A stretch of DNA of 59,888 nt from Candidatus Levybacteria bacterium RIFCSPLOWO2_02_FULL_37_18 (GTDB lineage: Bacteria > Patescibacteriota > Microgenomatia > Levybacterales > UBA12049): positions 1-59,888 of the forward strand of contig MFPD01000020.1 in NCBI GenBank assembly GCA_001784115.1, written 5' to 3'. This document shows positions 6,792 through 59,078 of the stretch, piece by piece; positions within the stretch are counted from its first letter, which is position 1, and the number at the start of each line of letters is the position of its first letter. The notes under the pieces were generated by a model, which saw only the letters and a list, made by a program, of their open reading frames with translations, had not been told where the DNA came from and ran no database searches. The translations under genes and the position numbers were made by a program.

Positions 6792-7547
6792 GTGAGTAAG
6801 CTATTTCTTTCTGTAGTTATTCCTTGCTTTGATGAGATGGTTAATCTTCAGAAAGGAGTACTTTATAAAGTTCGAGATTATCTTGAAGAGCAAAAATATG
6901 ACTACGAAGTTATTGTAGCAGATGACGGCTCAACTGACGGAAGTGTTGAATTTATAAAGGAATTTATTAAGAAAAATCCTTCGTTTCGAGTGATGGAAAA
7001 TACTCATCTGGGAAAAGCAGGCGCTGTCACAAAAGGTGTTTTAGAAGCAGCAGGAGAAATCATTTTATTCACCGACATGGATCAGGCAACCCCAATTGAA
7101 GAATTAGGTAAATTACTTCCTTCTTTTAAAGAGGGATATGATGTGGTAATTGGTTCAAGAAGCAGTCGTCGAAAAAATTCTCCTTGGACTCGAATTGTTA
7201 TGGCGCGAAGTATGATCATATTAAGATCACTTATAGTTGGACTTAAAGGAATTTCTGATACTCAGTGCGGTTTCAAAGCATTTAAAAATGGAGCAGCAAA
7301 AAAAATATTTATTAAAATAAACAATATGCATAACGGTTTTAGACAGATTACGGGATCTGCGGTTACGGCAGGTTTCGATGTAGAGCTTTTATTTATTGCA
7401 TTAAAAATGGGGTATAACATAAAAGAAGTACCGGTTAATTGGCTCTATGTTGAATCAAGACGCGTAAGTCCTGTTAAAGATTCGATAGAAGGATTAATAG
7501 AACTTGTGAGAATTCGAATGAATATTAATAAGGGAATGTACGACTAA
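6792..7547 (+). CDS. GT2 glycosyltransferase, polyprenyl-phosphate glucosyltransferase (ALG5)-like
   Basis: This 251-residue cytoplasmic GT-A enzyme probably moves a sugar from a nucleotide donor to polyprenyl phosphate. From the GTG start, SVVIPC near 7-12 opens the fold. ADDGSTDGS at 43-51 binds the nucleotide, GKAGAVTKG at 74-82 and the metal-binding DMD at 95-97 follow, and QCGFKAF is the conserved acceptor-side motif of ALG5/DPM-type enzymes. No C-terminal membrane helix is seen. I chose GTG 6792 because an upstream TTG at 6753 lies inside the promoter. It opens the long plus-strand cluster, 15 bases before an MptB-like protein, and may supply lipid-linked sugar to the GT-C enzymes. Confidence 0.82.
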   Translation: MSKLFLSVVIPCFDEMVNLQKGVLYKVRDYLEEQKYDYEVIVADDGSTDGSVEFIKEFIKKNPSFRVMENTHLGKAGAVTKGVLEAAGEIILFTDMDQATPIEELGKLLPSFKEGYDVVIGSRSSRRKNSPWTRIVMARSMIILRSLIVGLKGISDTQCGFKAFKNGAAKKIFIKINNMHNGFRQITGSAVTAGFDVELLFIALKMGYNIKEVPVNWLYVESRRVSPVKDSIEGLIELVRIRMNINKGMYD

Positions 7548-7562
7548 GAACTAAAAACTCAA

Positions 7563-8756
7563 ATGGCAAAACTCAAAACTATAGTTCAAAGTTCGAAACT
7601 TATAGCAACTGGATACATATTCACAATTATTCTTTTGTTTTTTTACTCATTTACTCAGGTGGATTTGGGATTAACACTTACCCGTCATCCGGTATTCTTG
7701 CCGTATCAAAAGTTTTTTCAATACATTGGCTATTTTAACAGACCGCTTTCCACATATCTTTTCGTAGTCATATTTTTTTTTCTATTAGTTTTTTATTTTT
7801 TAATACTTAGATTTACCTATCAAAAGAAAGTTATGAGTTCACTGTTTTGGAAAATAATTCTTTTAACATCAGCGATTCTTTTATTTTCTTATAACGCATT
7901 CTCCTATGATTTATTTAATTATATTTTTGACGCAAAGATAATAACTTATTATGGGCAAAATCCATATCAACACAAGGCGTTAGATTATCCTCAGGATCCA
8001 ATGCTTTCGTTTATGCACTGGACCCATAGGTTGTATCCATACGGCCCGATATGGCTTCTCATAACGGTTCCATTTTCATATATTGGCTTACAATTTTTTC
8101 TTCCAACTTTTTTATTGTTTAAGCTATTAATAATCGGAAGCTTTATAGGAACAGTTCATTATATTGAAAAGATTTCACAAAAATTATTTCCTTCTGATTC
8201 TATGTTTAATACAATATTTTTTGCATTAAATCCCCTTGTAATAATTGAATCTTTAGTATCTGCTCATAACGATATTGTTATGATGTTTTTTGCAATGATG
8301 GCAACATACTTACTGATTGAAAAAAAATACGCTTTGTCATTTTTAGTTCTTTTGTTATCGGTAGGGATTAAATTTTCGACCCTATTTCTTGTTCCCATTT
8401 TTCTCTATGTATTAATTTTGAACTACAAAAAAAAATCTGTAGATTGGGAGAGAATTTTTTTACTGGAAAGTATTGTTATGATTATTGCGGTTATTTTTTC
8501 TTCAGCCAGAACCGAGCTTCAGCCGTGGTATTTTTTATGGGTCGTTCCATTTGCGGCCTTTATTTCTCGGAAAAAGTTACTATTTATACCTACGTCAATT
8601 TTCTCATTTATTTTACTGGCATATTATGTACCTTTTCTTTATTCGGGCAACTGGGATCCACCAATTCCCTCGATTAAAAACTGGTTGTTAATTTTTGGCA
8701 TGCTGTTTTCTGGTTATCTGATAATTTTTCCAAGAACGAAAAAAGAAAAAGTATGA
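7563..8756 (+). CDS. MptB/DUF2029-like polytopic mannosyltransferase
   Basis: This GT-C-type integral membrane protein of 397 residues has about ten hydrophobic segments. It resembles the polyprenyl-phosphate-mannose-dependent alpha-mannosyltransferases (MptA/MptB and GT87 relatives). Key motifs are SYDLFNY near 114-120 with the likely catalytic Asp116 after the second helix group, NPY at 133-135, YGPIW at 160-164, and NPLVIIE...SAHNDIV near 222-238. A paralogue with the same motifs lies at 49766. The donor would be a lipid-phosphate sugar used on the outer face. The gene follows the ALG5-like GT2 by 15 bases and overlaps the next ATG by four (ATGA), indicating coupled translation. The sugar is not determinable. 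Confidence 0.75.
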   Translation: MAKLKTIVQSSKLIATGYIFTIILLFFYSFTQVDLGLTLTRHPVFLPYQKFFQYIGYFNRPLSTYLFVVIFFFLLVFYFLILRFTYQKKVMSSLFWKIILLTSAILLFSYNAFSYDLFNYIFDAKIITYYGQNPYQHKALDYPQDPMLSFMHWTHRLYPYGPIWLLITVPFSYIGLQFFLPTFLLFKLLIIGSFIGTVHYIEKISQKLFPSDSMFNTIFFALNPLVIIESLVSAHNDIVMMFFAMMATYLLIEKKYALSFLVLLLSVGIKFSTLFLVPIFLYVLILNYKKKSVDWERIFLLESIVMIIAVIFSSARTELQPWYFLWVVPFAAFISRKKLLFIPTSIFSFILLAYYVPFLYSGNWDPPIPSIKNWLLIFGMLFSGYLIIFPRTKKEKV

Positions 8757-9934
8757 AGAAGATATTATTCATTGTTGTTTTTTTAGTATTTATCTCTCAT
8801 TTCTTCTTTCGAGTTTATTCCTATAAAGAAAATTATGTATCACGATTTGATCCAAAATACTGGAAAGACAGATATCTTAATTCCCAATGGGTAGATCCAT
8901 CTGGTTGTGATTGGGATCCACATATTAATCCGGTAACATGTGTATGGGACGATGCATGGTTTGCTGCTCATCCTGTAGAAAATTATGTGCCAGGAAAAAA
9001 TGAGCCAATTGGAGATGATGGATTATATGCATATGCTGGTTGGGAATATGTTCATGGAAAAGACCCGTCTCTTCTAAACGCGGAAATTCCTCCCCTAGGA
9101 AAATATCTGATTGGACTATCAATACTTATTTTTAACAATCAAAACATTTTTGCATTCATCAGTGGAATTTTATTTCTCATCTCTTTTTATTTTCTTAATA
9201 CCAAAATTTTTAAAGAAAAAGTTTTAGCTTTTTTACCAGTTGCTTTATTTTCTTTTGAGCCGCTTTTTTATACACAACTTCGGGCTCCTTTTTTAGATCT
9301 TCTCTACGGAACATTTCTGTTTTTAGTTTTTTATTTTTTCCTCACAAAAAAATATATTTTGTCCAGTATTTTTTTAGGGTGTATGATGGCAACGAAAGCT
9401 TCTGTTGCTACGTTTGCCATTACAGAAGGAAGTATTTTTTTATATCTTTTTACAACAAGAAAAATTAATGAGATAAAAAACATAGTATTTCTCAGTCCAG
9501 TTGCTTTTTTTGTTCTCACTCTTTCCTATTTACGATATTTTTTATTAGGACATAACATATTCGGGTTTCTTAAAGTTCAAAAATGGATTATTTCTTTCTA
9601 TGGAATGGGGGCAAAAGGAAAATTTGCAGATATTTTTCAAATGATCATGACTGGAAAATGGTCAACATGGTTTAGTGCGACAATTCCGGTTACCGAATGG
9701 CAGATTACCTGGCCACTAGTATTTATATTTTCTTTTTTATGTATTATATTGATTTTTAAGTATAAATATATTGATGCATCATTTCTTTTTGTTTCTTGGA
9801 TTTTTGTGTATGGAGCTTTCTTATTATTAATTCCGGTTTTTCCCCGCTACCTTTTGATACTTCTTCCATTTTTTTACACTCTTTTAGTATATGTTGTCAA
9901 ACGATTTCGTTCTGAAGTTTTTAAGTCTTCATGA
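8753..9934 (+). CDS. PMT-like GT-C glycosyltransferase with Cys-containing loop insertion
   Basis: This 393-residue polytopic membrane protein resembles the dolichyl-phosphate-mannose protein mannosyltransferase group. After one N-terminal helix comes a large outer loop ending in EPIGDDGLYAYAGWEYVHG (84-102), with DDG in the position of the catalytic acidic pair, then IPPLGKYLIGLSILIF. A late motif WSTWFSA...EW...WP and the C-terminal PVFPRYLLILLP are shared with paralogues at 10723 and 27059. Between SQW (44-46) and EPIGDDG this copy has 37 residues where 10723 has six. The extra segment holds two cysteines (52, 63) and many Trp, Asp and Pro. The start overlaps the previous stop by four bases. 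Confidence 0.75.
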   Translation: MKKILFIVVFLVFISHFFFRVYSYKENYVSRFDPKYWKDRYLNSQWVDPSGCDWDPHINPVTCVWDDAWFAAHPVENYVPGKNEPIGDDGLYAYAGWEYVHGKDPSLLNAEIPPLGKYLIGLSILIFNNQNIFAFISGILFLISFYFLNTKIFKEKVLAFLPVALFSFEPLFYTQLRAPFLDLLYGTFLFLVFYFFLTKKYILSSIFLGCMMATKASVATFAITEGSIFLYLFTTRKINEIKNIVFLSPVAFFVLTLSYLRYFLLGHNIFGFLKVQKWIISFYGMGAKGKFADIFQMIMTGKWSTWFSATIPVTEWQITWPLVFIFSFLCIILIFKYKYIDASFLFVSWIFVYGAFLLLIPVFPRYLLILLPFFYTLLVYVVKRFRSEVFKSS

Positions 9935-9940
9935 TACAAT
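9935..9940 (+). promoter_or_regulatory. Possible -10 box before an 18-codon upstream ORF
   Basis: TACAAT at 9935-9940 lies seven bases before an ATG at 9948. That ATG opens an 18-codon reading frame overlapping the GT2 start at 9994. No convincing -35 is visible, so this is a weak internal promoter candidate. Confidence 0.35.
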
Positions 9941-9947
9941 ACGCTGT

Positions 9948-10004
9948 ATGATTCCACGGATAAAAATATCGACAATAAAAGATTTCTTAGAAAATGGATT
10001 TTAA
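9948..10004 (+). CDS. Possible 18-residue leader peptide (upstream ORF)
   Basis: A short frame starts at ATG 9948, reads 18 codons with several Ile and Lys and ends at TAA 10002-10004, overlapping the start of the GT2 gene at 9994 by 11 bases. Because an in-frame stop precedes the GT2 ATG by one codon and no Shine-Dalgarno site is seen there, translation of this frame could deliver ribosomes to the GT2 start. There is no homology evidence; it may be chance. Confidence 0.3.
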   Translation: MIPRIKISTIKDFLENGF

Positions 10005-10707
10005 AGAAATAAAAATAGCGATCATAATTCCAACATATAAGGAAAGTGAAAGTATAAGTATTTTAGCAGATAGAATTTTAACTATTTTTCCGAATGCAAA
10101 AATAATCATAGTGGATGATTCTCCGGTTAAGGAAAATACAAAAATCAAAGAACAGTTTAAAAAAAAGAAGGATACAATAAATATCTGCTCTCGATTTAAA
10201 AAAGAAGGTAGAGGGAGTGCGGTGATTGTGGGTTTTAAACAAGCTTTAAAAAATAAAGCAACAGACTTCTTTTTTGAAATGGACGCAGATTTAGCACATA
10301 ACCCGGATGAGATTGTGAACTTCCTTAAAAAAAGGAATCAAGCAGATGTAATAGTTGGCTCTAGATATTTATCCGAAAGTAAAATAACACAATGGCCTCT
10401 GAGAAGACTTATTCTTAGTAAGACGATAAACGCCTTTTTAAAAATTTGGTTGGGAATTAATCTCACTGATTATACTAACGGGTTTAGAATGTATAACAGA
10501 AAATCCATAGAGTATGTGTGTAGCGTATCTTTAAAGGAAAAAGGTTTTATCTTACTTTCAGAAGTTATCTACAGATTAAAAAAAGCAGGATTTAAAATTA
10601 TCGAAATTCCCATTACTTTTAAAGATCGAACATATGGAAAGTCTAATGCAGGAATTAGGGAACATGTGAATTCATTAATCGGTTTAGTAAGAATTCGATT
10701 TTCGTAG
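9994..10707 (+). CDS. GT2 polyprenyl-phosphate mannose synthase-like enzyme (DPM1 type)
   Basis: This cytoplasmic GT-A enzyme of 237 residues very likely makes a polyprenyl-phosphate sugar, the donor used by GT-C enzymes. IIPTYKE opens the protein near 11-17. VDDSP at 40-44 replaces the usual VDDGS, and EMDADLAHNPDE at 95-106 carries the metal-binding D97-x-D99. DYTNGFRMY and the C-terminal FKDRTYGKSN are hallmarks of dolichol-phosphate mannose synthases. It lacks the C-terminal membrane helices of many bacterial homologues, like the soluble DPM1 form. It sits between two near-identical PMT-like genes, which suggests it feeds them. Confidence 0.85.
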   Translation: MDFKEIKIAIIIPTYKESESISILADRILTIFPNAKIIIVDDSPVKENTKIKEQFKKKKDTINICSRFKKEGRGSAVIVGFKQALKNKATDFFFEMDADLAHNPDEIVNFLKKRNQADVIVGSRYLSESKITQWPLRRLILSKTINAFLKIWLGINLTDYTNGFRMYNRKSIEYVCSVSLKEKGFILLSEVIYRLKKAGFKIIEIPITFKDRTYGKSNAGIREHVNSLIGLVRIRFS

Positions 10708-10722
10708 AATGCAATCTTTATA

Positions 10723-11808
10723 ATGAAACAAAAGATTTTTTGCATCTTAATAGTTTTTTTTGTTTTACACCTTATAGTAAGGGTATATTCATTTAGGAAA
10801 AATTTTACCACACCCTATAATTCTCATTATTGGAAAGAAAGATACGAAAGATCACAATGGATTACTTTTATGTCCACAGAGCCAATTGGAGATGACGGAT
10901 TATATGCGTATGCTGGTTGGGAATATGTTCATGGAAAGAACCCAGTTCTTAATAGTCCTGAGGTTCCTCCCCTAGGAAAATATCTGATTGGACTATCAAT
11001 ACTTATTTTTAACAATCAAAACATTTTTGCACTTTTAATAGGACTTTGTACGTTACTGGTTTTCTATATCCACAACATGGAGATTTTCAAAGATAAATTC
11101 CAAGCTTTTCTTCCGGTTTTTCTTTTTAGCTTTGAGCCAATTTTTTTTGAACAGATAAAAGCACCATATCTTGATCTTCTACAGCTTCTTTTTTTATTAC
11201 TTATTTTTATTTGCATTCATAGAAAAAAAATAGTTTTATCTGGAGTATTTTTAGGTTGTTTTGCAGCAACAAAAAATACCTATTTATCTCTTCTTGTAGT
11301 GGCAACAGTTTCGGGTTATCTTCTAACGCAAAAAGACAAAAAAAAACTTTTACATTCCTCCGTGGGGGTGCTCATATCATTTTCTATATTCATAGCATCT
11401 TACGCTAGATTCTTCATGTTAGGAAATTCTTTTTTAGATTTTCTTAGAGTCCAAAAAGGGATACTTATCAATAATTACTTTATGGCTGCAAAATCAAAAT
11501 TAGGAATCGTGATTCCCATGTTTTTTACGGGGTATTGGTTTACCTGGTGGGATGGTATACAAAGGGTAGCGGAATGGTTACCAACGTGGCCTGTTTTATG
11601 TCTTGTTTTACTTTATTATATAATAACGCATAAAGAAAATTGTTTTTTAAACAAGTTCTCTTTAAATTTTATTTGGATAGGATTGTATTTATTTTTTTTA
11701 CTGTTTGTTCCAGTATTCCCACGTTATTTGCTTCTTCTTTTGCCTTTTATGTATAATCTTTTTGTATGGGTTTTATCAAAAAATATCGCATCGAGATTAT
11801 TACATTAG
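10723..11808 (+). CDS. PMT-like GT-C glycosyltransferase
   Basis: This 361-residue polytopic protein is a paralogue of 8753. The outer loop carries EPIGDDGLYAYAGWEYVHG at 53-71, then PPLGKYLIGLSILIF. The 51-residue stretch from EPIGDDG to NNQNIFA is almost identical to 8753 at both protein and DNA level, while flanking parts are much more divergent. A WFTWWDG...EW...WP motif and a C-terminal PVFPRYLLLLLP follow. It lacks the Cys-containing insertion of 8753. The ATG at 10723 overlaps a chance TATAAT string. It overlaps the following gene by 43 bases. The acceptor may be a protein or a lipid-linked glycan. Confidence 0.75.
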   Translation: MKQKIFCILIVFFVLHLIVRVYSFRKNFTTPYNSHYWKERYERSQWITFMSTEPIGDDGLYAYAGWEYVHGKNPVLNSPEVPPLGKYLIGLSILIFNNQNIFALLIGLCTLLVFYIHNMEIFKDKFQAFLPVFLFSFEPIFFEQIKAPYLDLLQLLFLLLIFICIHRKKIVLSGVFLGCFAATKNTYLSLLVVATVSGYLLTQKDKKKLLHSSVGVLISFSIFIASYARFFMLGNSFLDFLRVQKGILINNYFMAAKSKLGIVIPMFFTGYWFTWWDGIQRVAEWLPTWPVLCLVLLYYIITHKENCFLNKFSLNFIWIGLYLFFLLFVPVFPRYLLLLLPFMYNLFVWVLSKNIASRLLH

Positions 11809-13286
11809 CATTATTTACTGTTATCTACTTTTTTATCCGATTCACAAATATACTCACTCTTCCCATTTTTACAGACGAAGCTATTTATGTAAGGTGGGCT
11901 CAGATTGCCAAGCAAGATGCGAATTGGAGGTTTATATCCTTAACAGACGGAAAACAGCCAATGTTTGTTTGGATGACAATTCTTCTAATGCGTATAGTAA
12001 AAGATCCGCTTTTGGCCGGAAGAAGTATCTCGGTGTTTTCTGGATTTTTTACTATGATTGGCCTTTATTTTTTGGGTAATGAACTTTTTAAAAATCGAAA
12101 ATTAGGACTAATTTGTTCTTTCCTTTATCTCATATTTCCGTTTGCTCTTGTTTACGATAGGATGGCACTTTATGACAGTTTGGTAGGAGCTTTTGCGGTC
12201 TGGGGATTTTACTTGGAAGTTTTATTAGCTAGAAGACTTCGACTGGATATAGCTTTGATAGCAAGTTTTGTAATTGGCGGGGGAATGTTAACAAAAACGA
12301 ATGCCTTTTTTAATCTCTACTTACTTCCTTTAACTCTTATTTTTTTTGATTTCAAAAATAAACAATTAAAGCAAAACATTATAAAATGGATTGGACTTTG
12401 TGGCGTGGTTTTTATTTTGAGCAATGTATATTATTCAATTTTACGACTTTCACCCTTTTTTCACATAATAACCGAAAAGAATGCGCTTTTTGTGTATCCT
12501 TTTAAGCAGTGGCTTATGCATCCATTTACGTATTTTTGGGGTAACCTTTTGATTGGAGAAAAAGACTGGTTAATAAAATACATGACAATACCAATTCTTT
12601 TATCTGTAGTTGCTGCATATTTTATTGATAAAAAGTTTTTGAAAGAAAAAATAATTCTTTTTATATGGTTTCTGATCCCCTTTTTGTATCTTGCTCTTTT
12701 TGGAAATGCTATTTATCCAAGATTTATTTTTTTTATGACTTTGTTTTTGCTTCCGCTTGCTGCATTTACCATTCAAAGGGTATCATTGTTAATACCTAAC
12801 AAAAAGTTGTATATTGTTTTTTGTTTGGCTGTTTTTTCATTTTCCTTTTACAGCGATTATTTTATTATTTTTAGTTTTTCAAAAGCTCCAATACCGTATT
12901 CTGATGTGAACCAATATAATAATGATTGGCCATCGGGAACAGGAGTCAAAGAATCTATTCAATTTTTTAAAGACAAAGCAAAAAAAGGAAAAATTTATAT
13001 AGCAACACAGGGAACTTTTGGACTTATGCCAGCAGCTTATGAAATGTATCTTAGTGATAATAAAAATATAGAACTTAAAGGTTATTGGCCAATAGAAGAT
13101 TTTGTTCCGAAAGAAGTATTACGAAAAAGTAAAACTATGCCGACATATTTTGTATTTCATGAACCGTGTGTTCCATGCGAAGGAAAAGGACTAGCTCCTG
13201 TCTTATGGGAAGCCAAATCAGTGCTTCAGATAGAAAAGATAACTAAGTCAGCATATTTTACGGTATATCAAATTAGTCCGCAATGA
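11766..13286 (+). CDS. ArnT/PMT-like GT-C glycosyltransferase
   Basis: This polytopic membrane protein of 506 residues has a first helix at about 10-30. An outer loop then holds TDEAIYVRWAQ, with the catalytic-type D37-E38 pair, and GKQPMFVWM near 62-70, the K-x-P motif of the PMT_2/ArnT family. About ten further hydrophobic segments follow. The C-terminal 130 residues form a soluble outer domain ending in a strand-rich region with a CVPC pair in EPCVPCEGKG. The start overlaps the upstream gene by 43 bases, the longest overlap in the cluster. The end overlaps the YfhO gene by four bases. Donor and acceptor sugars cannot be read from sequence. Confidence 0.78.
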   Translation: MGFIKKYRIEIITLALFTVIYFFIRFTNILTLPIFTDEAIYVRWAQIAKQDANWRFISLTDGKQPMFVWMTILLMRIVKDPLLAGRSISVFSGFFTMIGLYFLGNELFKNRKLGLICSFLYLIFPFALVYDRMALYDSLVGAFAVWGFYLEVLLARRLRLDIALIASFVIGGGMLTKTNAFFNLYLLPLTLIFFDFKNKQLKQNIIKWIGLCGVVFILSNVYYSILRLSPFFHIITEKNALFVYPFKQWLMHPFTYFWGNLLIGEKDWLIKYMTIPILLSVVAAYFIDKKFLKEKIILFIWFLIPFLYLALFGNAIYPRFIFFMTLFLLPLAAFTIQRVSLLIPNKKLYIVFCLAVFSFSFYSDYFIIFSFSKAPIPYSDVNQYNNDWPSGTGVKESIQFFKDKAKKGKIYIATQGTFGLMPAAYEMYLSDNKNIELKGYWPIEDFVPKEVLRKSKTMPTYFVFHEPCVPCEGKGLAPVLWEAKSVLQIEKITKSAYFTVYQISPQ

Positions 13287-15640
13287 GAAAATTTTTAATA
13301 GGGATTTTCTTTCTTTTTTTGACATTTTTTTTCTTTTATCCGATTTTCAAAGGGTTTATCCCATTTCCGGGAGACCTTCTTTCCTCAGAGTATCAACCGT
13401 ATCGATCGTATTCGTATTTAGGATATAATCCCGGAAGTATTCCAAATAAAGGTCAAGGGCAGGATACAATTAGGATGATGTATCCATGGAAATATTTTAG
13501 CATCGAAGCTTTAAAACATGGACAAATGCCCCTGTGGAATCCGTATAATTTTTCCGGGAATCCACATTTTGCAAATCTTCAATCAGGAACTTTTTATCCG
13601 GAAAATATTTTATTTTTCTTGTTGCCTTTTAATGCAGCATGGGCAATGTATATCATGTCTCAACCCTTTTTGGCCGGAGTTTTTCTTTACATTTTCTTAA
13701 GGAGCATTGGGCAAAAAAAAGCATCATCTTTTTTTGGAGGAGTTGTTTTTGCATATTCTTCCTTTATGGTTGTATGGCTTGAGTATGGGAATTTGATAAG
13801 TACTTTTCTTTGGCTTCCTCTTGCGCTCTTTTTTATTGATAGTTTTATAAAATCTTCCAAGATATTAAGGCTTGGCGGTTTGATAGTTTGTTTTCTTTTT
13901 TCGATTTCCGGAGGATATATACAGCTGTTTATGTATCTTTACATAATTTCGGTTTCGTTTGCAGTTTATGTTTTACTTAGGAATAAAAAGAACTTTTCTT
14001 ACCAAAAAACTATTTTACTGACATCAGCATTTGTTGTGCCGTTTTTCCTAAGCGCTGCTATTTTACTACCGCTTTTTGAGATATTTAAAAACTCGGCAAG
14101 AAATGCTTATACGTTTTCGGAACTTCCCGAACGTCTTATTCCGCTTAAAAATCTAATTACCATTGTCGTTCCCGACTTTTTTGGAAATCCTGCTACGAGA
14201 AATTATTGGATAAAAGGAACATATATAGAGAGAGTTTCATATATTGGGATAATCCCACTTTTATTTTCTTTAGTTTCTTGGAAGATGAGAAAAAGGGGAT
14301 ATGTAATATTTTTTATAAGCACCGCTATAGCAAGTTATGTATCCACGCTTAATATTTTTCCCGTACAATTATTCCATTCGCTTGGTTTTCCGTTTGTCTC
14401 AACTGGAGTTCCAAGCAGAATATTATCTGTTTATTGTTTTTCCATGGCAGTTCTTGCGTCTTATGGGTTTAGTTATTGGCAAGAGGCAAGAAAACTCAAG
14501 GAGTTTTACATCGCATTTTTCATTCTTTTGGGAATTGTTTTAACTTCTTGGATATTTGTTTCCATTTTTCATTATCCACAGGCATCCATAACAAAACATA
14601 ATCTTGTATTGCCTACATTATTTATTCTGGCAATCGGAATATTGTTATTCATCCAAAAATTGATATCAAGAAAAATTATTTTATTTGTTTTTTTTATTCT
14701 CACTATTTTTGATTTATTCTTTTTCTTTAGAAAAATAATTCCTTTTTCACCGCAGATTCTTACATACCCTAAAACCGAGGTAATGGAAAAGCTTCGCTCG
14801 ATACAAGGAATTAACAGATCGTGGGGATATGGATCGGCATTTATTGATGCAAATCTCCAACTGCAGGAGAGAATATATGCCACAGACGGCTATGATCCTT
14901 TGTTCATAAAAAGGTATGCAGAATTTGTTTCTTCGTCAAAAAACGGTCAAACACCGGTGATTATTGATAGGTCTAACGTGAATGTGGCGACAGGATATGG
15001 AGAAAGTGATCTAAGCACTAACATCTATCGCCAAAAAGTATTAGATCTTTTGGGTGTAAAATACATTCTTCATAAAACAAGCCAGAAAAATCCCGACACT
15101 GTCATCTTCCCAGAAAAAAGATATAAGCTACTATGGCAAAGTGGTGACTGGCAAATATATGAAAACAAGCAGGCACTTCCGCGTGTTTTTTTAGCAAAAA
15201 ATTTTGTCGTTGAAAAAGACAAGAGAAAAATACTAGATTTGATTTTAGATAAAAATTTTGATTTACAAAACACTGTAATTCTTGAGAAATCACTTCCTTC
15301 AGAGTTTAATAATAATAAAGATGAAAATGCGGGAATTGTATTAGAAAAATACGATCCAAATACTATAATAGTAAAAACTCGGTCAGAATCGCCTTCCTTA
15401 CTTTTTCTGTCGGATAATTATTTTCCCGGTTGGAGAGTGAATATCGACGGAAAACCATCTACAATATATAGAGCAGATTATACGTTTAGAGCTGTTCCTG
15501 TGATGAAAGGAAAGCATCAGGTGGAAATGTGGTACCATCCTGATTCATTTGCCTTGGGAGTAAAAATATCAACAATTACGTTTATATCATTGATACTATA
15601 CGTAGTATATAATGCTTTTAAGAAAAAAAGGAATGTTTAA
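13283..15640 (+). CDS. YfhO-family polytopic membrane protein, full length
   Basis: This 785-residue protein belongs to the YfhO family (PF09586). Firmicute members such as YfhO glycosylate cell-surface lipoteichoic acid, and relatives are GT-C-like. Motifs are MPLWNPYNFSGNPHFANLQS near 84-103, VPDFFGNPATRNYW near 294-307, and VPSRILSVY. A beta-rich outer domain ends with FLSDNYFPGWRVNIDG and RADYTFRAVPV, followed by one last C-terminal helix and a basic tail (KKKR). It is the longest of three YfhO paralogues here and the only one retaining the final helix. It overlaps both neighbours by 4-8 bases. Confidence 0.85.
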   Translation: MRKFLIGIFFLFLTFFFFYPIFKGFIPFPGDLLSSEYQPYRSYSYLGYNPGSIPNKGQGQDTIRMMYPWKYFSIEALKHGQMPLWNPYNFSGNPHFANLQSGTFYPENILFFLLPFNAAWAMYIMSQPFLAGVFLYIFLRSIGQKKASSFFGGVVFAYSSFMVVWLEYGNLISTFLWLPLALFFIDSFIKSSKILRLGGLIVCFLFSISGGYIQLFMYLYIISVSFAVYVLLRNKKNFSYQKTILLTSAFVVPFFLSAAILLPLFEIFKNSARNAYTFSELPERLIPLKNLITIVVPDFFGNPATRNYWIKGTYIERVSYIGIIPLLFSLVSWKMRKRGYVIFFISTAIASYVSTLNIFPVQLFHSLGFPFVSTGVPSRILSVYCFSMAVLASYGFSYWQEARKLKEFYIAFFILLGIVLTSWIFVSIFHYPQASITKHNLVLPTLFILAIGILLFIQKLISRKIILFVFFILTIFDLFFFFRKIIPFSPQILTYPKTEVMEKLRSIQGINRSWGYGSAFIDANLQLQERIYATDGYDPLFIKRYAEFVSSSKNGQTPVIIDRSNVNVATGYGESDLSTNIYRQKVLDLLGVKYILHKTSQKNPDTVIFPEKRYKLLWQSGDWQIYENKQALPRVFLAKNFVVEKDKRKILDLILDKNFDLQNTVILEKSLPSEFNNNKDENAGIVLEKYDPNTIIVKTRSESPSLLFLSDNYFPGWRVNIDGKPSTIYRADYTFRAVPVMKGKHQVEMWYHPDSFALGVKISTITFISLILYVVYNAFKKKRNV

Positions 15641-17288
15641 CAAACATAAAATAATTTTTTTATCATTGGGAGTAATTTTTTTTGTTGGTTTATTTATAAG
15701 ATTAAATGCTTTAAGTTCTTTTCCCGTTGGTTTTCATCAAGATGAAGCAAGTGTAGGATACAATGGGTATTCACTCTTAATAACTGGAAAAGATGAAAAC
15801 AATAATCCCTTTCCTTTGTATATAGACATGTTTGGAGATAATAGACCATCCGGTTACCATTATTTGACTATAATTCCAATTATGTTGTTTGGCCTTACAG
15901 AATTTTCCACGAGGCTTCCAGGAGCGATTTTTGGAAGCTTAACAATTATAGCCTTTTTTTTCTTAACACACGCAGTGTTTAAAAATAAACTGCTGGGTCT
16001 TGTAAGCTCACTCCTTCTTGCTCTTGCTCCATGGCATGTGTCGCTTTCGAGAGCAAGCGATGAAGCAATCGTTGCTTTGTTTTTTATAGTAGTAGGATTT
16101 ACTTTTTTTATTCATAGTATAAGAAACAACAGTAAAAAACAAATGATAATAGGTACTTTTATTCTCATAGTAAGTTTTTTCTTTTATCATACCCCTAGGG
16201 TTTTCGTTCCCTTACTATTTTTTATAGCCCTTATTTCATGTTTCCCAATTCTTAAAAAGACAAACCGAGAATATAAAATTGCCTGCATATTTTTGTTTCT
16301 TTTTATTTCTTTGATAGCTTTTGTGCTTGTATTTTCCATTCCTGGAGGGACAGGGAGGTTTGGCCAAGTTAATATATTTAGTAATTTTCAAACTGTGTTT
16401 TTTCAAACGCAACAGATCCAAGAGGACGCAATAGCACAATCTTCCTACTTCGCTTCTCGTTTCTTTCATAATAAAATTACAAATGTATTATTAGTTTTTA
16501 TTTCGAACTATTTTGATTATTTCGGGTTAAACTTCCTTTTTACAAAAGGAGGGTTGCCCATTTGGTATTCCATTCCCCGCCAGGGATTGCTGTATTTGAT
16601 TGAGCTTCCGTTTATTGCTATAGGCATGTATCAGCTTATAAGGCGTAAGGTCGATCTGATTCATGTTATTCCATTGTACTGGTTACTAATTGGTCCGTTT
16701 GTGGCAGCAATTACTATGGATGATGTACCCAATATTAACCGGTCTCTTGTAATGTTTCCCATGTTTGATCTAGTAGCTGCTTTCGGATTTCTATATGTAG
16801 TTAATAATCTTAAGAGAAAACAAGGATTACTCTTTATTTTGCTATCGGTGTCGGCACTTTTAGTAAGCTTTTTTTATTTTTTACATCAATATTATTACAA
16901 TGCAAAAACTCATAATCCATGGTATCGAAATAATGGGTTTAAAGCAATGATGGAGGAGGTAAAAAAATCATACAATTCGTACGATAAGGTTGTTATAACA
17001 AAATACCAAGGGGGGACGTACCCTCTTGTTTTGTTTTATATGAAGTTTGATCCAAGGCAGTATCAAAAAGAAGGATCTCCGAAGAGTAAAGAGTACGGGG
17101 GATTTGGAAAATTCTTTTTTGTCCCTCAGGATTGTCCATCGGTACAAACAACAGATAAAACCCCCAGTGGCCGTATTCTTTTTGTAGATTACGGAGGTTG
17201 TAAGTGGGACAAATCTCTTGCTTTTAAAAAAATTACTTTTATTGACCGTGAAGATAGATCAAAAGCGTTTCGCATGGTATATGAATAG
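15633..17288 (+). CDS. ArnT-like GT-C glycosyltransferase
   Basis: This polytopic protein of 551 residues belongs to the ArnT-like group also represented at 17281, 36948, 40549 and 42161. QDEASVGYNGYSLLITGKDE (36-55) contains the catalytic-type D37-E38 and the conserved YN-x-YS string. GYHYLTIIP and RLPGAIFG follow. DVPNINRSLVMFPMFDLVAAFG late in the protein marks the conserved outer-loop/helix signature. The C-terminal soluble part is divergent and lacks the WQYGYKE signature of the other four. I chose ATG 15633 (eight-base overlap with the upstream stop, AAGGA just before it) over 15612. Confidence 0.8.
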   Translation: MFNKHKIIFLSLGVIFFVGLFIRLNALSSFPVGFHQDEASVGYNGYSLLITGKDENNNPFPLYIDMFGDNRPSGYHYLTIIPIMLFGLTEFSTRLPGAIFGSLTIIAFFFLTHAVFKNKLLGLVSSLLLALAPWHVSLSRASDEAIVALFFIVVGFTFFIHSIRNNSKKQMIIGTFILIVSFFFYHTPRVFVPLLFFIALISCFPILKKTNREYKIACIFLFLFISLIAFVLVFSIPGGTGRFGQVNIFSNFQTVFFQTQQIQEDAIAQSSYFASRFFHNKITNVLLVFISNYFDYFGLNFLFTKGGLPIWYSIPRQGLLYLIELPFIAIGMYQLIRRKVDLIHVIPLYWLLIGPFVAAITMDDVPNINRSLVMFPMFDLVAAFGFLYVVNNLKRKQGLLFILLSVSALLVSFFYFLHQYYYNAKTHNPWYRNNGFKAMMEEVKKSYNSYDKVVITKYQGGTYPLVLFYMKFDPRQYQKEGSPKSKEYGGFGKFFFVPQDCPSVQTTDKTPSGRILFVDYGGCKWDKSLAFKKITFIDREDRSKAFRMVYE

Positions 17289-20585: not shown

Positions 20586-20591
20586 GGCGAT

Positions 20592-36217: not shown

Positions 36218-36233
36218 AGAAGAAATCTTTAAA
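36213..36233 (+). repeat. Stop/start-spanning inverted repeat
   Basis: TTTAAAG (36213-36219) and CTTTAAA (36227-36233) flank a 7-base loop. The left arm holds the DUF2079 stop, and the right arm ends on the first base of the GT2 ATG. The hairpin could modulate initiation. Confidence 0.45.
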
Positions 36234-49249: not shown

Positions 49250-49773
49250 AGAAACTGAATCTTCTTCTTATTTTTTTTGTTCTTTTTTTAAGTATACAAT
49301 CAATAGCTTTTGCGAATAGTTCGTATGTTCTCCCGTATCCTTCTAGCATGCCGGGAAGTATTCCTTATAAAGTTCATGTATTTATAGAACATATTTTAAA
49401 GTATTGGTATTTTGGAAGCTTTTCCCAATTTAAATACAATAGAAAATACGCAGACAAATATTTAATTGAAGCAAAAGTGCTTTTTGAATACGGCCAATAT
49501 CCTTTGGCTATTAAAGCATTGGAAAAATCAAACTTCTATTTTAAGAACGAATCCGATTTTCTTGTTCAAGCGGAAAGAGAAAATAAAAATATTAGTGAAA
49601 AAATGATGCTATTAAAAAATGCTTCACAAAAACATATAGAGGTTTTAGAAAAAATTAAAAAGGAGGTTCCAGAAAAATTTAATTGGAGTCCAGAAAAATC
49701 AATCCCGTACGAACTTCAAATACGCACAATAATTGACAAAGCGATTAAGGATCGAATGCAAGTATATGAATAA
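49246..49773 (+). CDS. Secreted DUF5667-like protein
   Basis: This small protein of 175 residues has a signal peptide (KK near the start, hydrophobic core 5-21, likely cleavage after AFA near 23). Mature residues YVLPYPSSMPGSIPYK are followed by a helical segment with KYWYFGSFSQFKYNRKYADK and EAKVLFEYGQYPLAIKALEK. This pattern resembles DUF5667-type extracytoplasmic proteins. No lipobox Cys is visible, so it is probably free or anchored by other means. It is the only small secreted protein in the cluster and could be an accessory or acceptor. It overlaps both neighbours by 4-8 bases. Confidence 0.65.
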   Translation: MKKLNLLLIFFVLFLSIQSIAFANSSYVLPYPSSMPGSIPYKVHVFIEHILKYWYFGSFSQFKYNRKYADKYLIEAKVLFEYGQYPLAIKALEKSNFYFKNESDFLVQAERENKNISEKMMLLKNASQKHIEVLEKIKKEVPEKFNWSPEKSIPYELQIRTIIDKAIKDRMQVYE

Positions 49774-54060: not shown

Positions 54061-54091
54061 AACCAACGTCTCAAAGTAGGTAAAATTTAGG

Positions 54092-54097: not shown

Positions 54098-54103
54098 ATC
54101 ATT

Positions 54104-55168
54104 ATGAATATAGCGATAGATATTTCTCCTTTACATTCAGGTAATTTTCTTCAGCATCGAGTTCGAGGAACAGGGTTCTATATCGAGAACCTCAAAACAT
54201 CTTTAGAAAAATATTTTCCGGAAAATAATTATATCTACTTTATTAAAGGTGATAAGCTACAAAAAAATACTGATGTCATTCACTATACATACTTTGAACC
54301 GTTTTTTTTAACCCTTCCTTTAGAAAAAAAACATAAAAAAATAGTTACGGTACATGATGTAACTCCTCTAGTTTTTCCTATTCATTTTCCTCCGGGAATA
54401 AAAGGAAAAATTAAATGGGAAATACAAAAAAAAGCATTAAAAAACTCAGATATTATAATTACCGATTCATCTTCCTCAAAGCGCGATATTATTAAATATA
54501 CAGGTATAAAAGACGAAAAAATAAAAGTAATTTATTTAGCTGCGAAAGAAAACTTTGTTCCATTGAAAAATAAAAATACAAAACAAGAAATTACTAAAAA
54601 ATACAATATACCATCAGAGTTTATTCTCTATGTTGGAGATATAACATGGAATAAAAATGTTCCGCGCTTAATCGAAGCTGTAAATACAATAGAAATTCCC
54701 TTGGTTATAGTTGGTAAAGCTCTTTCGGATCAAGAGTTAGGAAAAACAGATAGGAAAAATTTATGGAATCAAGATCTTTTTAAAGTTGAGCAACTAATTA
54801 AACAAAATAAAGAAATTTTTAGACTTGGATTTGTTCCGGAAGAAGATCTCATTAAGTTATATAATAGCGCAAGGGTGTTTCTTATGCCATCTTTGTACGA
54901 GGGCTTTGGTCTTCCTGTTCTTGAAGCTATGAGCTGCGGCTGTCCGGTTATAACCTCTAAGGATGGATCTTTAGAAGAAGTTGGAGGCGAGGCTGTATTT
55001 TATGTTGACGCGCATAACACAAACAGTATTGCTTCCGGAGTAAAAGAAGTATTTATAGATTCAAAAAAACAAATTGAATTAAAGAAAAAAGGATTAGTAC
55101 AGGCAAAAAAATTTTCATGGAAAAAAACTGCTGAGGAAACAATAAAAGTTTATGAAGGAACGAATTAA
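54104..55168 (+). CDS. GT4 glycosyltransferase (WbaZ/mannosyltransferase-like)
   Basis: This cytoplasmic GT-B enzyme of 354 residues begins IAIDISPLHSGNFLQHRVRG (3-22) with the RGTGFY loop for acceptor/donor contacts. VHDVTPLVFP and ITDSSSSKRDI are in the first half. LYVGDITWNKNVPRLIEAVN opens the second half, and the EX7E motif is in YEGFGLPVLEAMSCGCPV. This organisation is typical of mannosyl/rhamnosyl transferases of O-antigen clusters. It overlaps the flippase by 17 bases. Confidence 0.86.
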   Translation: MNIAIDISPLHSGNFLQHRVRGTGFYIENLKTSLEKYFPENNYIYFIKGDKLQKNTDVIHYTYFEPFFLTLPLEKKHKKIVTVHDVTPLVFPIHFPPGIKGKIKWEIQKKALKNSDIIITDSSSSKRDIIKYTGIKDEKIKVIYLAAKENFVPLKNKNTKQEITKKYNIPSEFILYVGDITWNKNVPRLIEAVNTIEIPLVIVGKALSDQELGKTDRKNLWNQDLFKVEQLIKQNKEIFRLGFVPEEDLIKLYNSARVFLMPSLYEGFGLPVLEAMSCGCPVITSKDGSLEEVGGEAVFYVDAHNTNSIASGVKEVFIDSKKQIELKKKGLVQAKKFSWKKTAEETIKVYEGTN

Positions 55169-56411
55169 ACGAGTAGCACAGAATCCACTTATCTTAGGAA
55201 GTGCTGTTATATTTTTTGGTACTCTTTTTGCTAACTTTTTAAATTTCTTGTTTAATTTTTACATGACAAGAAATATGACCGTTTCCGATTATGGAATTCT
55301 ATCAAGTCTTGTTTCAGTTATAATGCTTTCTGCATTAACGTCTGATTCTTTTGCTCCAACAATCGTGCATTTTTCCGGCGGTTTTTTTGCGCGGAAAGAA
55401 ACCGAAAAAGTGATTGGCCTATTCCATGAACTGAATAGATATTTTCTTGCTTTAGGGATATTAATTCTCGCGCTGTTTTTAGTTTTTGGTAAATATATTG
55501 GTATTTTTTTTAAAATAGAAGATCAATTTCTAGTAATTTTAGTTGGAATAATAGTATTCATTAATCTTTTAGGAACTGTTAATAGAGGAATTTTGCAAGC
55601 CAAATTGTCCTTTAGATATATTTCTTTTATATATATATGTTCTTCGTTTGTTAAGCTTGTTATTGGTATTTCTTTAGTAATTCTCGGTTTTAGGGTTAAA
55701 GGTCCTTTGTGGGCATTTATTATATCTTTTTCTGTTGCATATTTTTTAACTTTTTTTCCATTAAAATTTTTACTAAAGAGAGAAGGTAAAACATCAGGGG
55801 TACGTATCGGAGAGATAGTATCCTATGCAGCTCCAGCTACTCTGTCGCTTGTTGGACTTACTTCTTTTATCTCAACTGACATTTTGCTCGTAAAACACTT
55901 TTTTTCGAGTGATGATGCAGGGATTTACGCGGGAATATCACTTTTAGGAAGAATAATTTACTTTTTCACAGCTCCGATAACAATGGTATTATTTCCTCTT
56001 ATTGTACAAAGGAATACCCGAGGAGAAAAGTACATTCATTTGCTAAAATTAGGAGGATTATTAGTTTTTTTATGTTCGTTTGCAATTACAATCAGTTACT
56101 ATCTCTTCCCTGATTTTTTTATAAAAATTATATTAAAAAGAGAGGAATATTTAATAGGCATACCCTTCTTAGGACTTTTTGGAATTTTTATGATTATATA
56201 TTCATTACTGTTTTTAATAACAAATTTTTATTTGTCAATTAAGAAGACAAAAGTATTTCTAGTAATACTTTTTTTTGCTTTTTTACAAGGTATTTTAATA
56301 TGGTTTTACCATGAGACTTTTCAAAATATCGTCTTAATTTCAATATTTTCATGCCTTATTCCATTGTCACTTTTTATTTTACACCTTGCGTTTTATGGAA
56401 AAAATAAATAA
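55152..56411 (+). CDS. Polysaccharide flippase (MOP superfamily)
   Basis: This polytopic protein of 419 residues has about twelve hydrophobic segments and would export lipid-linked glycans. NFYMTRNMTVSDYGILSSLV near 35-54, then GILQAKLSFRYISFIYI and IVSYAAPATLSLVGLTSF are typical of polysaccharide biosynthesis flippases. It is distinct from the WzxC-like protein at 23024, so the cluster may export two lipid-linked products. It is flanked by a GT4 and GT2 with 17-base overlaps on both sides. Confidence 0.84.
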   Translation: MKERIKRVAQNPLILGSAVIFFGTLFANFLNFLFNFYMTRNMTVSDYGILSSLVSVIMLSALTSDSFAPTIVHFSGGFFARKETEKVIGLFHELNRYFLALGILILALFLVFGKYIGIFFKIEDQFLVILVGIIVFINLLGTVNRGILQAKLSFRYISFIYICSSFVKLVIGISLVILGFRVKGPLWAFIISFSVAYFLTFFPLKFLLKREGKTSGVRIGEIVSYAAPATLSLVGLTSFISTDILLVKHFFSSDDAGIYAGISLLGRIIYFFTAPITMVLFPLIVQRNTRGEKYIHLLKLGGLLVFLCSFAITISYYLFPDFFIKIILKREEYLIGIPFLGLFGIFMIIYSLLFLITNFYLSIKKTKVFLVILFFAFLQGILIWFYHETFQNIVLISIFSCLIPLSLFILHLAFYGKNK

Positions 56412-57207
56412 TAAAACTCAACATCTTGTTTCCCTAATAATTCCTGCATACAGACAAGAGAAAACAATAATAGAGGACATAATTCGTATAAAAGATGTCT
56501 TAGAACAACTTAGATATGACTATGAAATGATAGTTGTTGTAGACGGAAAAGTAGATAATACTTTGCAAAATGCAAAGAAGGTCACATCTCCTAAAATTAG
56601 AGTAACCGGTTACGAACACAATCATGGAAAGGGATTTGCAATTCGATACGGAATGATGCATTCAAAAGGAGATATTGTTGGCTTCATAGATTCGGGAATG
56701 GATCTTAATCCCAACGGTTTATCTATGCTTTTAGAACATTTTGAATGGTACAATGCCGACATCATAATTGGCAGTAAAAGACATCCCGCTTCGAGAGTAA
56801 ATTATCCGTTTAAAAGGCGTTTGATAAGCATGCTTTCCCAGATTTTTATTCGAGTTTTGTTTGGATTAAATGTTCGAGATACCCAGGTTGGCATGAAGTT
56901 TTTTAAAAGAAAGGTTATAGAGGACACATTGCCTCGTCTTCTAGTAAAAAAATTTGCATTCGATATAGAGATTTTAGTAGTGGCATACGGTTTGGGGTAT
57001 AAAAAGATATATGAGGCTCCTATTGAACTAGAGCATATCTTTTCTGAAAGTATTGTTTCCAACAGACTTATTCTGGAGGTTTTAGATACTCTTTGGGATA
57101 CTCTTGCGATATTTTATCGGCTTAAAATTCTTCGTTACTATGATAATAAAAATAAAAGAAGGTGGAGATATGATCCGGAGCTAAAGTTTGAGGTAAACAT
57201 GCCGTAA
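56395..57207 (+). CDS. GT2 glycosyltransferase with altered metal motif
   Basis: This 270-residue cytoplasmic enzyme begins VSLIIPAYRQEKTIIEDI. The nucleotide motif is VVVDGKVDNT rather than the standard DDGSxD, and the metal motif is IDSGMDLNP rather than a simple DxD. GSKRHPASRVNYPFKRR, RDTQVGMKFFKRK and FAFDIEILVV are conserved features of a DPM-like subfamily, so it is probably active. No membrane helix is seen. ATG 56395 is preferred to the TTG at 56386. The next gene starts one base after its stop. Confidence 0.82.
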   Translation: MEKINNKTQHLVSLIIPAYRQEKTIIEDIIRIKDVLEQLRYDYEMIVVVDGKVDNTLQNAKKVTSPKIRVTGYEHNHGKGFAIRYGMMHSKGDIVGFIDSGMDLNPNGLSMLLEHFEWYNADIIIGSKRHPASRVNYPFKRRLISMLSQIFIRVLFGLNVRDTQVGMKFFKRKVIEDTLPRLLVKKFAFDIEILVVAYGLGYKKIYEAPIELEHIFSESIVSNRLILEVLDTLWDTLAIFYRLKILRYYDNKNKRRWRYDPELKFEVNMP

Positions 57208-57208
57208 G

Positions 57209-58306
57209 ATGAAAATCTTAATACTAAACTGGCGGGATATAAAACATCCACTGGCAGGGGGCGCAGAAATTTCTACGCATGAACATGCTAAGGGATGGGT
57301 AAAAGCTGGACATGAAGTTTTTCAATTTTCATCCTCCTTTCCAAATGCAAAAAAAGAGGAGGTAATAGATTCAATAAGAATAATTAGAAGAGGAAATCAT
57401 TACACGGTACACCTCTATGCATTTTTTTATTTTTTAAGGTATTTAAGAAAACGAATAGATTTAATTATTGATGAGTTTCATTTTATTCCTTTTTTTACTC
57501 CGCTTTATACAAAATCTAAAAAATTAGCATTCATTCATGAAACCGCAGAGGAGATTTGGCTGAGGCATAGATTATTCCCTATAAATATTATAGGATATTT
57601 TATTGAGCCCCTGTTTTTCAAACTGTATAGGAATATTCCATTTATGACCGTTTCAAATTCAACAAAAAATGATCTTGTCCGATTTGGAATAAACAAAAAT
57701 AATATTACTATAATTAATAATGGAGTAAATATTGTTAAGCGTAGGTCAGAAAAAGAAAAAACAGCAACGATAATTTGTCTTAACAAATTGTCAAACGATA
57801 AAGGAAGTGAAGACGCAATTTACGCATTCCATGAAGTCTTGAAATATGAGAGAAATACTCATCTTTGGATGGTTGGAAAAGAAGATGAGAAAGGATACAA
57901 AGAAAAGCTCAAGCAAATAGCAAAGAATTTAGGGATAGAAAATAAAATATTTTTCTTTGGCTTTGTATCCGAAGAAAAAAAGTTCAATTTGCTCGGGAAG
58001 GCTTGGATTTTAATACACCCATCAATAAAAGAAGGATGGGGATTAAATGTCATAGAAGCTGCCAGTTGTGGAACTCCGACTGTTGCTTATGATACATCGG
58101 GTCTTCGAGATGCAATAGTTGACGGACAGACCGGTTTGCTCGTAAAGAAAAGAAATCCTATAGAATTAGGAAGGAGCATATATTCGCTTTTGAACAATCA
58201 ACAGTTTTATAATATTTTGAGTAAAAACGCCTTGGCGTGGAGTAAAAAATTTGACTGGAAAAAATCAGCTGAGGAAAGTCTAAAGCTGATTGAAAATATA
58301 ATATAG
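57209..58306 (+). CDS. GT4 glycosyltransferase
   Basis: This GT-B enzyme of 365 residues begins ILILNWRDIKHPLAGGAEIS (3-22), with the GG-AE loop binding the donor nucleotide. FIHETAEEIW, VSNSTKNDLVRFGI and NNGVN follow in the first half. LNKLSNDKGSEDAIYAF begins the donor half, and KEGWGLNVIEAASCGTPTVA holds the EX7E motif. It resembles PimA/WcaI-type mannosyl- or glucosyltransferases. It ends two bases before a methyltransferase gene, which might modify the terminal sugar. Confidence 0.86.
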   Translation: MKILILNWRDIKHPLAGGAEISTHEHAKGWVKAGHEVFQFSSSFPNAKKEEVIDSIRIIRRGNHYTVHLYAFFYFLRYLRKRIDLIIDEFHFIPFFTPLYTKSKKLAFIHETAEEIWLRHRLFPINIIGYFIEPLFFKLYRNIPFMTVSNSTKNDLVRFGINKNNITIINNGVNIVKRRSEKEKTATIICLNKLSNDKGSEDAIYAFHEVLKYERNTHLWMVGKEDEKGYKEKLKQIAKNLGIENKIFFFGFVSEEKKFNLLGKAWILIHPSIKEGWGLNVIEAASCGTPTVAYDTSGLRDAIVDGQTGLLVKKRNPIELGRSIYSLLNNQQFYNILSKNALAWSKKFDWKKSAEESLKLIENII

Positions 58307-58307
58307 T

Positions 58308-59078
58308 ATGAGTATTATTTTTAAGGTTTTAATATTTTGGTATTCATTGACCAGTTTTTTTAAACGTAAAATCTTAGTAAAAAATATTGGCAAAGACGAT
58401 TTGGTATTGGATGTTGGATCCGGTGATAAACCCTTTTGGAGAGCGGATGTGATCGTTGATAAATACCTTCAAGATGATCAGCAAAGACACAGTGGGGCTG
58501 TGGTGAATGACAAGAGAAAAATATTTATAGAAGGAGATGTTGAAAGGCTTCCTTTTAAAGATAAAGTTTTCGATTTTGTATTCTGTTCGCATCTTTTAGA
58601 ACATGTTGAAAATCCCGATATGGCAATTGCGGAGTTAGTCAGAGTAGCAAAAAGAGGATACATAGAGGTTCCGTATGCAATCGTTGATCTTTTAATGCCT
58701 TTTCCGCCTCATTTGTGGTTCTGTTTTTACAAGAAGGACACTCTTATTTTTCATCAGAAAGAAAAAGAAAAGAATATTCTGATTCATGATACGGAGCGTT
58801 TCGGAAAAATATTTTATAATAGTTCTTTGGTTCAATATCTGTTTGCAAAGGACTATAAATCAATTTTTATTACTCTTTACTGGAGAAATAACTTAAAGTA
58901 TTCCGTTACAAGAGTAAAGAATCCATACAGGTATATATATAAAGAAGAGTTACATGAAAAAACACTTTTTATAAAGATAAGCTTTGTCTTATACAAAATT
59001 TTCTACTTTTTCATAACAGGATTACTTTATAAAAAGAAGAAAATAGATATAGATAAACTTTTACTGATAAAGGAATAA
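58308..59078 (+). CDS. Class I SAM-dependent methyltransferase
   Basis: This 256-residue cytoplasmic protein has motif I LVLDVGSGDKPFWRADVIVD near 28-47, with the E/D-x-G-x-G SAM-binding loop. FIEGDVERLPF near 70-80 is motif II-like, and FDFVFCSHLLEHVENPDMAI is the post-I/IV signature of the Methyltransf_11 group. A hydrophobic C-terminal segment (FVLYKIFYFFITGLL) may associate with the membrane. It is the last gene of the plus-strand cluster; a terminal methylation that caps a glycan chain is plausible but unproven. Confidence 0.83.
   Translation: MSIIFKVLIFWYSLTSFFKRKILVKNIGKDDLVLDVGSGDKPFWRADVIVDKYLQDDQQRHSGAVVNDKRKIFIEGDVERLPFKDKVFDFVFCSHLLEHVENPDMAIAELVRVAKRGYIEVPYAIVDLLMPFPPHLWFCFYKKDTLIFHQKEKEKNILIHDTERFGKIFYNSSLVQYLFAKDYKSIFITLYWRNNLKYSVTRVKNPYRYIYKEELHEKTLFIKISFVLYKIFYFFITGLLYKKKKIDIDKLLLIKE

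Follow-up and report, generated by a model that had tools for sequence, protein, structure and literature searches.

The closest described relatives of the system that concerns us here are the multi-component (three-component) transmembrane glycosylation systems of Gram-positive bacteria, CsbB-GtcA-YfhO and GtlA-GtcA-GtlB, in which a glycosyltransferase (GT) of the GT-A type charges C55 polyprenyl phosphate (C55-P), a flippase follows (of the Wzx type in the case proposed for S. pyogenes), and an external GT-C of the YfhO or PMT_2 kind decorates an existing polymer (PMC8035078, PMC5836110); the published systems have one GT-C apiece (PMC8035078). Our subject is a 52-kb locus of Candidatus Levybacteria bacterium RIFCSPLOWO2_02_FULL_37_18 (assembly GCA_001784115.1), on contig MFPD01000020.1, the whole of which, at 59,888 bp, is the window analysed (contig C20 of the genome in our numbering). 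Our best reading would make this locus a greatly enlarged variant of those systems: by homology, GT-A enzymes should charge C55-P here too, and a flippase and external YfhO and PMT_2 types are shared, whereas the locus has about 23 GT-C-type genes, a stem module and no GtrA.

The eukaryotic and archaeal lipid-linked N-glycan pathway (the ALG enzymes, with STT3 or AglB) follows the same logic, in that GT-A and GT-B enzymes work inside, the product is flipped, and GT-Cs then use polyprenyl-phosphate sugars outside; structurally, our models of locus proteins are related to ALG12 and STT3. The locus differs in lacking an oligosaccharyltransferase motif, in the GT-C families that it uses and in having far more GT-C genes. 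Mycobacterial and corynebacterial lipomannan and arabinan synthesis (MptA/B, PimE, AftA-D, EmbA-C; PMC2440535, PMC2157549, PMC12041525) also employs serial GT-Cs and polyprenyl-phosphate donors, and two locus proteins, u1 and C21, resemble MptA/B. An Emb-type arabinosyltransferase, as in mycobacterial arabinan synthesis, was not recognised at the locus. The mycobacterial genes, unlike those here, are not known to lie in one operon-like run.

Loci for Wzx/Wzy-dependent polysaccharides have GT2 and GT4 enzymes and a Wzx flippase in common with ours, but no Wzy polymerase (Wzy_C) or initiating phosphoglycosyltransferase (PGT; Bac_transf) occurs in the visible part of the run, and we therefore reject a Wzy-dependent locus; the genome's matches lie only on other contigs (C14, C19, C25 and C27 for Wzy_C, C14 and C19 for Bac_transf). 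Nor did Pfam scans of the locus find an ABC domain, and hence an exporter of the Wzm/Wzt or TagGH kind. As for the Microgenomates themselves, 29 glycosyltransferase genes have been counted in one genome (PMC7143001). The original prediction, which a model made from the DNA alone, knew of no described system of this design, and in the open-access literature we likewise found no description of a Microgenomates GT-C locus of this kind or scale.

The run consists of 40 genes, all on the + strand between 6792 and 59078 (open reading frame list, Pfam, NCBIfam), and its content is 23 polytopic GT-C-type or GT-C-like proteins, 13 cytoplasmic GTs (10 GT2 and 3 GT4), two Wzx-type flippases, one methyltransferase and one DUF5667 protein. 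The original prediction counted all of these correctly except the last, which it overlooked. Its uninterrupted one-strand run is indeed near-gapless, with intergenic gaps of -43 to +60 nt and common 4-nt overlaps, but the reading frame is broken once, in C15. We think it probable that the locus encodes a two-sided assembly line, old and widely conserved, by which Microgenomatia make a large surface glycan of defined structure.

A conserved order of old paralogues

Six relatives were compared through reciprocal-best orthologues, namely G006, G033, G022, G039, G037 and G052 (a Gottesmanbacterium), with the loci of G037 and G022 covered in part only. Collinear orthologues number 30/32 in G006, 27/28 in G033, 25/28 in G039, 19/22 in G037, 15/17 in G022 and 18/21 in G052, while shuffling gives mean collinear chains of 6.7-9.6 (9.6 for G006) and a maximum of 16 in 5,000 shuffles. 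The loci of G006, G033 and G039 span 56-66 kb and hold 30, 24 and 23 polytopic non-flippase genes, respectively. This synteny with independently assembled genomes makes a misassembly, which the original prediction had named as a possible undoing, very unlikely, and we reject it.

A wider view comes from C12 (31544-33838), one of three YfhO genes in the run. A scan of genome contigs with its single sequence gave nothing, and an alignment-based repeat gave 53 related loci, the nearest from Candidatus Levybacteria/Levyibacteriota, followed by Gottesman-, Roizman-, Shapiro-, Woese-, Curtiss- and Chisholmbacteria; these are lineages of the Microgenomates, the class Microgenomatia. Among 50 such loci, the gene GT4a is the immediate upstream neighbour of C12 in 44 and GT2g its immediate downstream neighbour in 42, and contig ends account for five of those without an expected neighbour. 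The core that recurs across the class is Wzx-GT2d-GT2e-GT2f-YfhO-GT4-YfhO-GT2g. A search with the C12 profile at E<=1e-60 gave matches in 17 of the roughly 32 class genomes sampled and in seven from the rest of the phylum. The weaker of these may be C5- or C11-type proteins; judged by profile, a C12-type gene is common in the class, not universal. First-look PMT_2 candidates per genome mostly number 13-42 in the class and 2-10 in the rest of the phylum, with 15-26 in some other families outside the class.

In a tree of 43 YfhO proteins, the C5, C11 and C12 types form three cleanly separate clades (support 99-100%), and because each of these spans several named Microgenomates lineages, the duplications should predate the lineages sampled. 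C6, C14 and C17 each form one single clade. For C7 no orthologue clade was recovered, and the proteins labelled C7 in relatives are what was left over as best hits; the C16 labels include some distant rows. Within the locus, paralogues are only 27-42% identical (BLAST), which, together with the old YfhO clades, led us to reject recent tandem duplication. The original prediction was well founded in seeing a GT-C-rich glycan locus and essentially right about the repeated membrane families, but its repeated paralogue sets are ancient genes in mostly fixed positions, with no repeated block.

Other genes come and go between relatives. The u2-GT2b-C3 cassette, C13, C10, C14, C15, C20 and C23 are present in some and absent from others, sometimes at the same site: that of C13, between GT2g and GT2h, is occupied in four other Levybacteria-type loci and empty in most. 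The cassette (8753-11808), two paralogous GT-C-like genes around one GT2, has no reciprocal orthologues in the six relatives and is a possible lineage-specific insertion. By gene content, the optional GT-C genes point to modular gain and loss between lineages, not to shuffling within one cell.

The host genome (1.11 Mb, 31 contigs, 96.5% complete) has 31 PMT_2 matches in total. Its contigs C11, C19, C23 and C25 have additional stretches rich in GT-Cs, with proteins like YfhO or PMT, and contig C1 carries an isolated C12-type YfhO (48% identical to C12) with a C19-type PTPS protein, at 2211-6133 of its extracted stretch.

Transferases, donors and flippases of the run

Searches of the locus proteins with hidden Markov models, which the original prediction had proposed as a check, identified PMT/PMT_2, YfhO, PTPS_related, DUF2079, MptA-like, GT2 and GT4 members. 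The polytopic proteins fit the picture of a GT-C, with 8-13 transmembrane (TM) helices and an acidic motif in an outer loop, going by Pfam, the motifs, the fold of C9 and crude hydropathy counts of TM segments. In orthologue alignments most families keep an acidic residue in their N-terminal region, as DE in PMT-like proteins, D in the YfhO family, HD in several of the PTPS type and SYD(L/I)FNY in u1/C21; in C20 no acidic residue reached 90% conservation, and for u2, C3 and C15 the orthologues were too few for this comparison. An AlphaFold model of C9 (18 sequences, pLDDT 85, pTM 0.88) finds its best Protein Data Bank (PDB) folds among oligosaccharyltransferase catalytic subunits (STT3/AglB/PglB; E from 3e-5, with modest TM-scores of 0.36-0.45), followed by ArnT, AftA and EmbB, all GT-C enzymes.

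BLAST groups five proteins as PMT/ArnT-like. These are C6 (15612-17288; PF13231 just under cut-off), C7 (17281-18936; PF13231 2e-11, without a clear orthologue group), C14 (36948-38570; PF13231 1e-12), C16 (40549-42156; PF02366 2.5e-14) and C17 (42161-43846; PF13231 1e-8); the DE is invariant in C6 and C14, and C16 and C17 have orthologues that include a Gottesmanbacterium. The three YfhO proteins are C5 (13283-15640; PF09586 4e-30), C11 (28194-30425; 4e-22) and C12 (2e-29), the last two belonging to the core; YfhO as a GT-C has genetic support in Bacillus subtilis, without biochemistry (PMC5836110). Four proteins are of the PTPS type: C8 (18933-20585), which has no Pfam match of its own, is 28-29% identical to the other three and carries an invariant D in THDGEW; C9 (20592-22307; PF10131 2.4e-16), with a beta domain near its C-terminus; C19 (45349-46992; 7e-11), with a conserved D in THDG; and C22 (50862-52502; 8e-16). 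Profile comparison relates the PTPS and YfhO families at 95.6% probability.

A short-protein family comprises u2 (8753-9934), its paralogue C3 (10723-11808; 42% identical) and C10 (27059-28201), which is found in part of the relatives only; C3 and C10 score against PMT_2 in the genome search, with 28 and 42 bits. The MptA/B-like pair is u1 (7563-8756; TIGR03459 5.5e-14, 52 bits), with an invariant D116 in SYDLFNY, and C21 (49766-50869; 3e-7, 30 bits), with an invariant D98. Their profile shows no significant relation to that of C4, and neither profile found matches in PDB sequence searches. C18 (43849-45339; PF13231 24 bits by hmmscan, 28 in the genome search; conserved YDVGRD) and C20 (47720-49249; PF13231 1.7e-8) are weakly related. 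The singletons are C4 (11766-13286; PF13231 2.3e-11), which has orthologues in all six relatives and a TDEAIY motif with invariant D37/E38; the DUF2079 protein C13 (34808-36217; PF09852 6e-41); C15; and C23 (52504-54060), a tentative GT-C without family, with an invariant D45, whose model (5 sequences, pLDDT 69, moderate confidence) has a single credible PDB match, ALG12 (E 0.013). C15 (38631-40534), GT-C-like and also without family, is split by two frameshifts into three successive frames, which match an intact 665-aa relative in G022 at 38643-38894, 38866-39255 and 39230-40522; it would be either a pseudogene or an assembly error.

Four or five of the GT2s resemble polyprenyl-phosphate-sugar synthases, going by their matches: GT2a (6792-7547; PF00535; orthologues in five of the six relatives), GT2b (9994-10707), GT2c (22288-23016; PF00535), GT2h (36233-36943) and probably GT2j (56395-57207), which BLAST alone places in the GT2a/c group. 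The best PDB relative of GT2a, GT2b and GT2h is the dolichol-phosphate-mannose synthase 5mlz (3.9e-16, 8.2e-27 and 1.9e-22, nearly full length in GT2h), then ArnC and GtrB. Among NCBIfam models, all below cut-off, GT2b finds PpgS, ArnC and AglJ, GT2c is nearest ArnC, and GT2h is nearest AglJ (113 bits). The remaining five look like ordinary cytoplasmic transferases: GT2d (24466-25380; GmaR/SunS-like), GT2e (25380-26309; rhamnosyltransferase-like; PF00535/PF13641, TIGR01556 2.4e-22, below cut-off), GT2f (26311-27069), GT2g (33865-34806; about two predicted TM segments) and GT2i (46974-47723), a relative of GT2d. The GT4s are GT4a (30474-31547; PF00534), GT4b (54104-55168; PF00534 2e-30) and GT4c (57209-58306; 2e-38); the best matches of the last two are MshA-like and other GT4 enzymes of low similarity.

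Both flippases are Polysacc_synt_3 proteins: Wzx1 (23024-24469; PF13440 3.6e-44), which matches MOP/Wzx models and belongs to the class-wide core, and Wzx2 (55152-56411; 5e-12). The DUF5667 protein (49246-49773; PF18915 1e-8; one predicted TM segment) adjoins C21 in G006, G033, G039 and G037 as well, and a class I methyltransferase (58308-59078; PF08241 4e-13) closes the run.

Around the locus, a Lon protease gene lies upstream (178-2544), and five of the six relatives also have it nearby; a Fic/DOC-domain protein (4188-5222, - strand) adjoins the locus. At the contig end, a 238-aa protein without family (59093-59809, - strand) has a short relative at the start of contig C23, which may mean neighbouring contigs or a shared gene family. 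In G006 (410-430 kb) sugar-nucleotide genes come soon after the locus, among them those for SIS, GHMP kinase and nucleotidyltransferase/HAD proteins, presumably the set for GDP-heptose; our host has, on other contigs, genes like RmlA/RmlD, GMD and UGD as well as a SIS/GHMP pair. On contig C13, at about 13162-22413, Rml-type, GDP-mannose dehydratase and UDP-glucose dehydrogenase genes precede a GT2-GtrA fusion and a GT-C, in what appears to be a compact classical three-component unit.

What the locus may build

From the things that can be read directly, which are gene content, homologies, the predicted fold of one representative, acidic motifs, orthology and synteny, we infer all activities, the order of steps, the carrier and the anchor. 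In the proposed assembly line, GT4a, GT2d/e/f/g/i and probably GT4b/c would act in the cytoplasm to assemble a conserved stem on a carrier lipid, and a Wzx-type flippase would turn it outward. GT2a, b, c, h and probably j would load single sugars onto polyprenyl phosphate, and about 20 GT-Cs (YfhO, PTPS-related, PMT/ArnT-like and MptA/B-like) would use these outside to extend and branch the glycan, with roughly one linkage each. The presence of two flippases suggests either two stems or one Wzx that moves monosaccharide carriers. Since the run has no Wzy or initiating PGT, the product is probably a non-repeating oligosaccharide, finished stepwise. The conserved part, by its recurrence, would be the stem module of Wzx1, GT2d-e-f, GT4a, GT2g and two YfhO proteins, and because the GT-C genes at the periphery are replaced from one lineage to the next, species should differ in their outer sugars. 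Such a combination of conserved stem genes and optional GT-C genes agrees with a core glycan whose outer sugars vary, somewhat like the cores of lipopolysaccharide.

Several observations do not sit easily with this scheme. At most five donor synthases would serve about 23 GT-Cs, which is a large ratio, and part of the polytopic proteins may be inactive as transferases. The direct GT-C evidence is weak or absent for C23, C15, u2 and C13. The locus has no GtrA-type flippase (the sole GtrA match of the genome is on contig C13), which leaves the crossing of monosaccharide carriers without an assigned flippase, and no ligase or anchor gene was recognised in it. The absence of Wzy and PGT is also not final, because the contig stops at 59,888, short of the 3' end of the locus.

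One might instead imagine a lipoglycan like lipomannan or lipoarabinomannan, in which the GT4s add sugars to a phospholipid or glycolipid of the membrane, a flippase moves it to the outer side, MptA/B-like and other GT-Cs extend it there and the lipid stays as the final anchor. Such a route requires no ligase, and it suits a run that has three GT4s, no phosphoglycosyltransferase and, in u1 and C21, two matches to the MptA model TIGR03459; we nevertheless regard it as unlikely, as those scores fall far under the cut-off of 439, PimA and PimB are not among the matches of GT4b and GT4c, and no arabinosyltransferase of the Emb type was found. Another candidate is protein glycosylation, whether by transfer of the finished glycan onto surface proteins such as S-layer proteins or pilins, or by direct single-sugar transfer from PMT-like enzymes. 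The PMT/PMT_2 families, the kinship of GT2h with AglJ of archaeal S-layer N-glycosylation, the oligosaccharyltransferase-like PTPS model and a conserved DUF5667 protein that could be target or partner would all accommodate this. No locus protein, however, contains the WWDxG motif (there is a single WWD, in C3), so we reject a recognisable oligosaccharyltransferase in the locus, and closeness to STT3 comes together with closeness to ArnT, AftA and PMT, that is, to the GT-C class overall; this makes protein glycosylation rather improbable to us.

The original prediction itself favoured a combinatorial surface-glycan factory. In a factory of this kind, or an antigen-varying one, interchangeable GT-Cs would make many glycoforms per cell. 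Optional genes and cassettes that vary between relatives, and the frameshifted C15, lend this some colour, and gain and loss of GT-C genes between lineages is the portion of the idea that survives. Gene order and orthology have, however, been kept over long times and between families of the class, paralogues are no more than 42% identical, and no gene block is repeated, so that the idea as worded is not supported and is very improbable, though no systematic search for phase-variable tracts or recombinases was made. Returning to the two-sided assembly line, we would suggest, tentatively and at somewhat less than even chance, that its product is an undescribed class-typical envelope glycan, a large and non-repeating oligosaccharide whose stem is conserved and whose outer sugars are particular to each species, mostly built outside by more than 20 serial GT-Cs from one inherited locus that takes up about 5-9% of a reduced genome.

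Lipid-linked sugar donors, Wzx and GT-Cs are of course known as parts; what is new, as far as the open-access literature shows, is the scale, the arrangement in series within a single inherited locus and the class-wide conservation. For those interested in GT-C specificities, the locus offers dozens of unassigned GT-Cs (YfhO, PTPS-related, DUF2079) in series with probable donor synthases. Patescibacteria, with their reduced genomes, are thought to live on other cells and are expected to shed costly pathways, and yet a sugar locus of 52-66 kb has been kept here in conserved order. A surface glycan that costs so much is a prime candidate for shielding or host interaction in the Microgenomates, for which this locus provides a specific set of genes.

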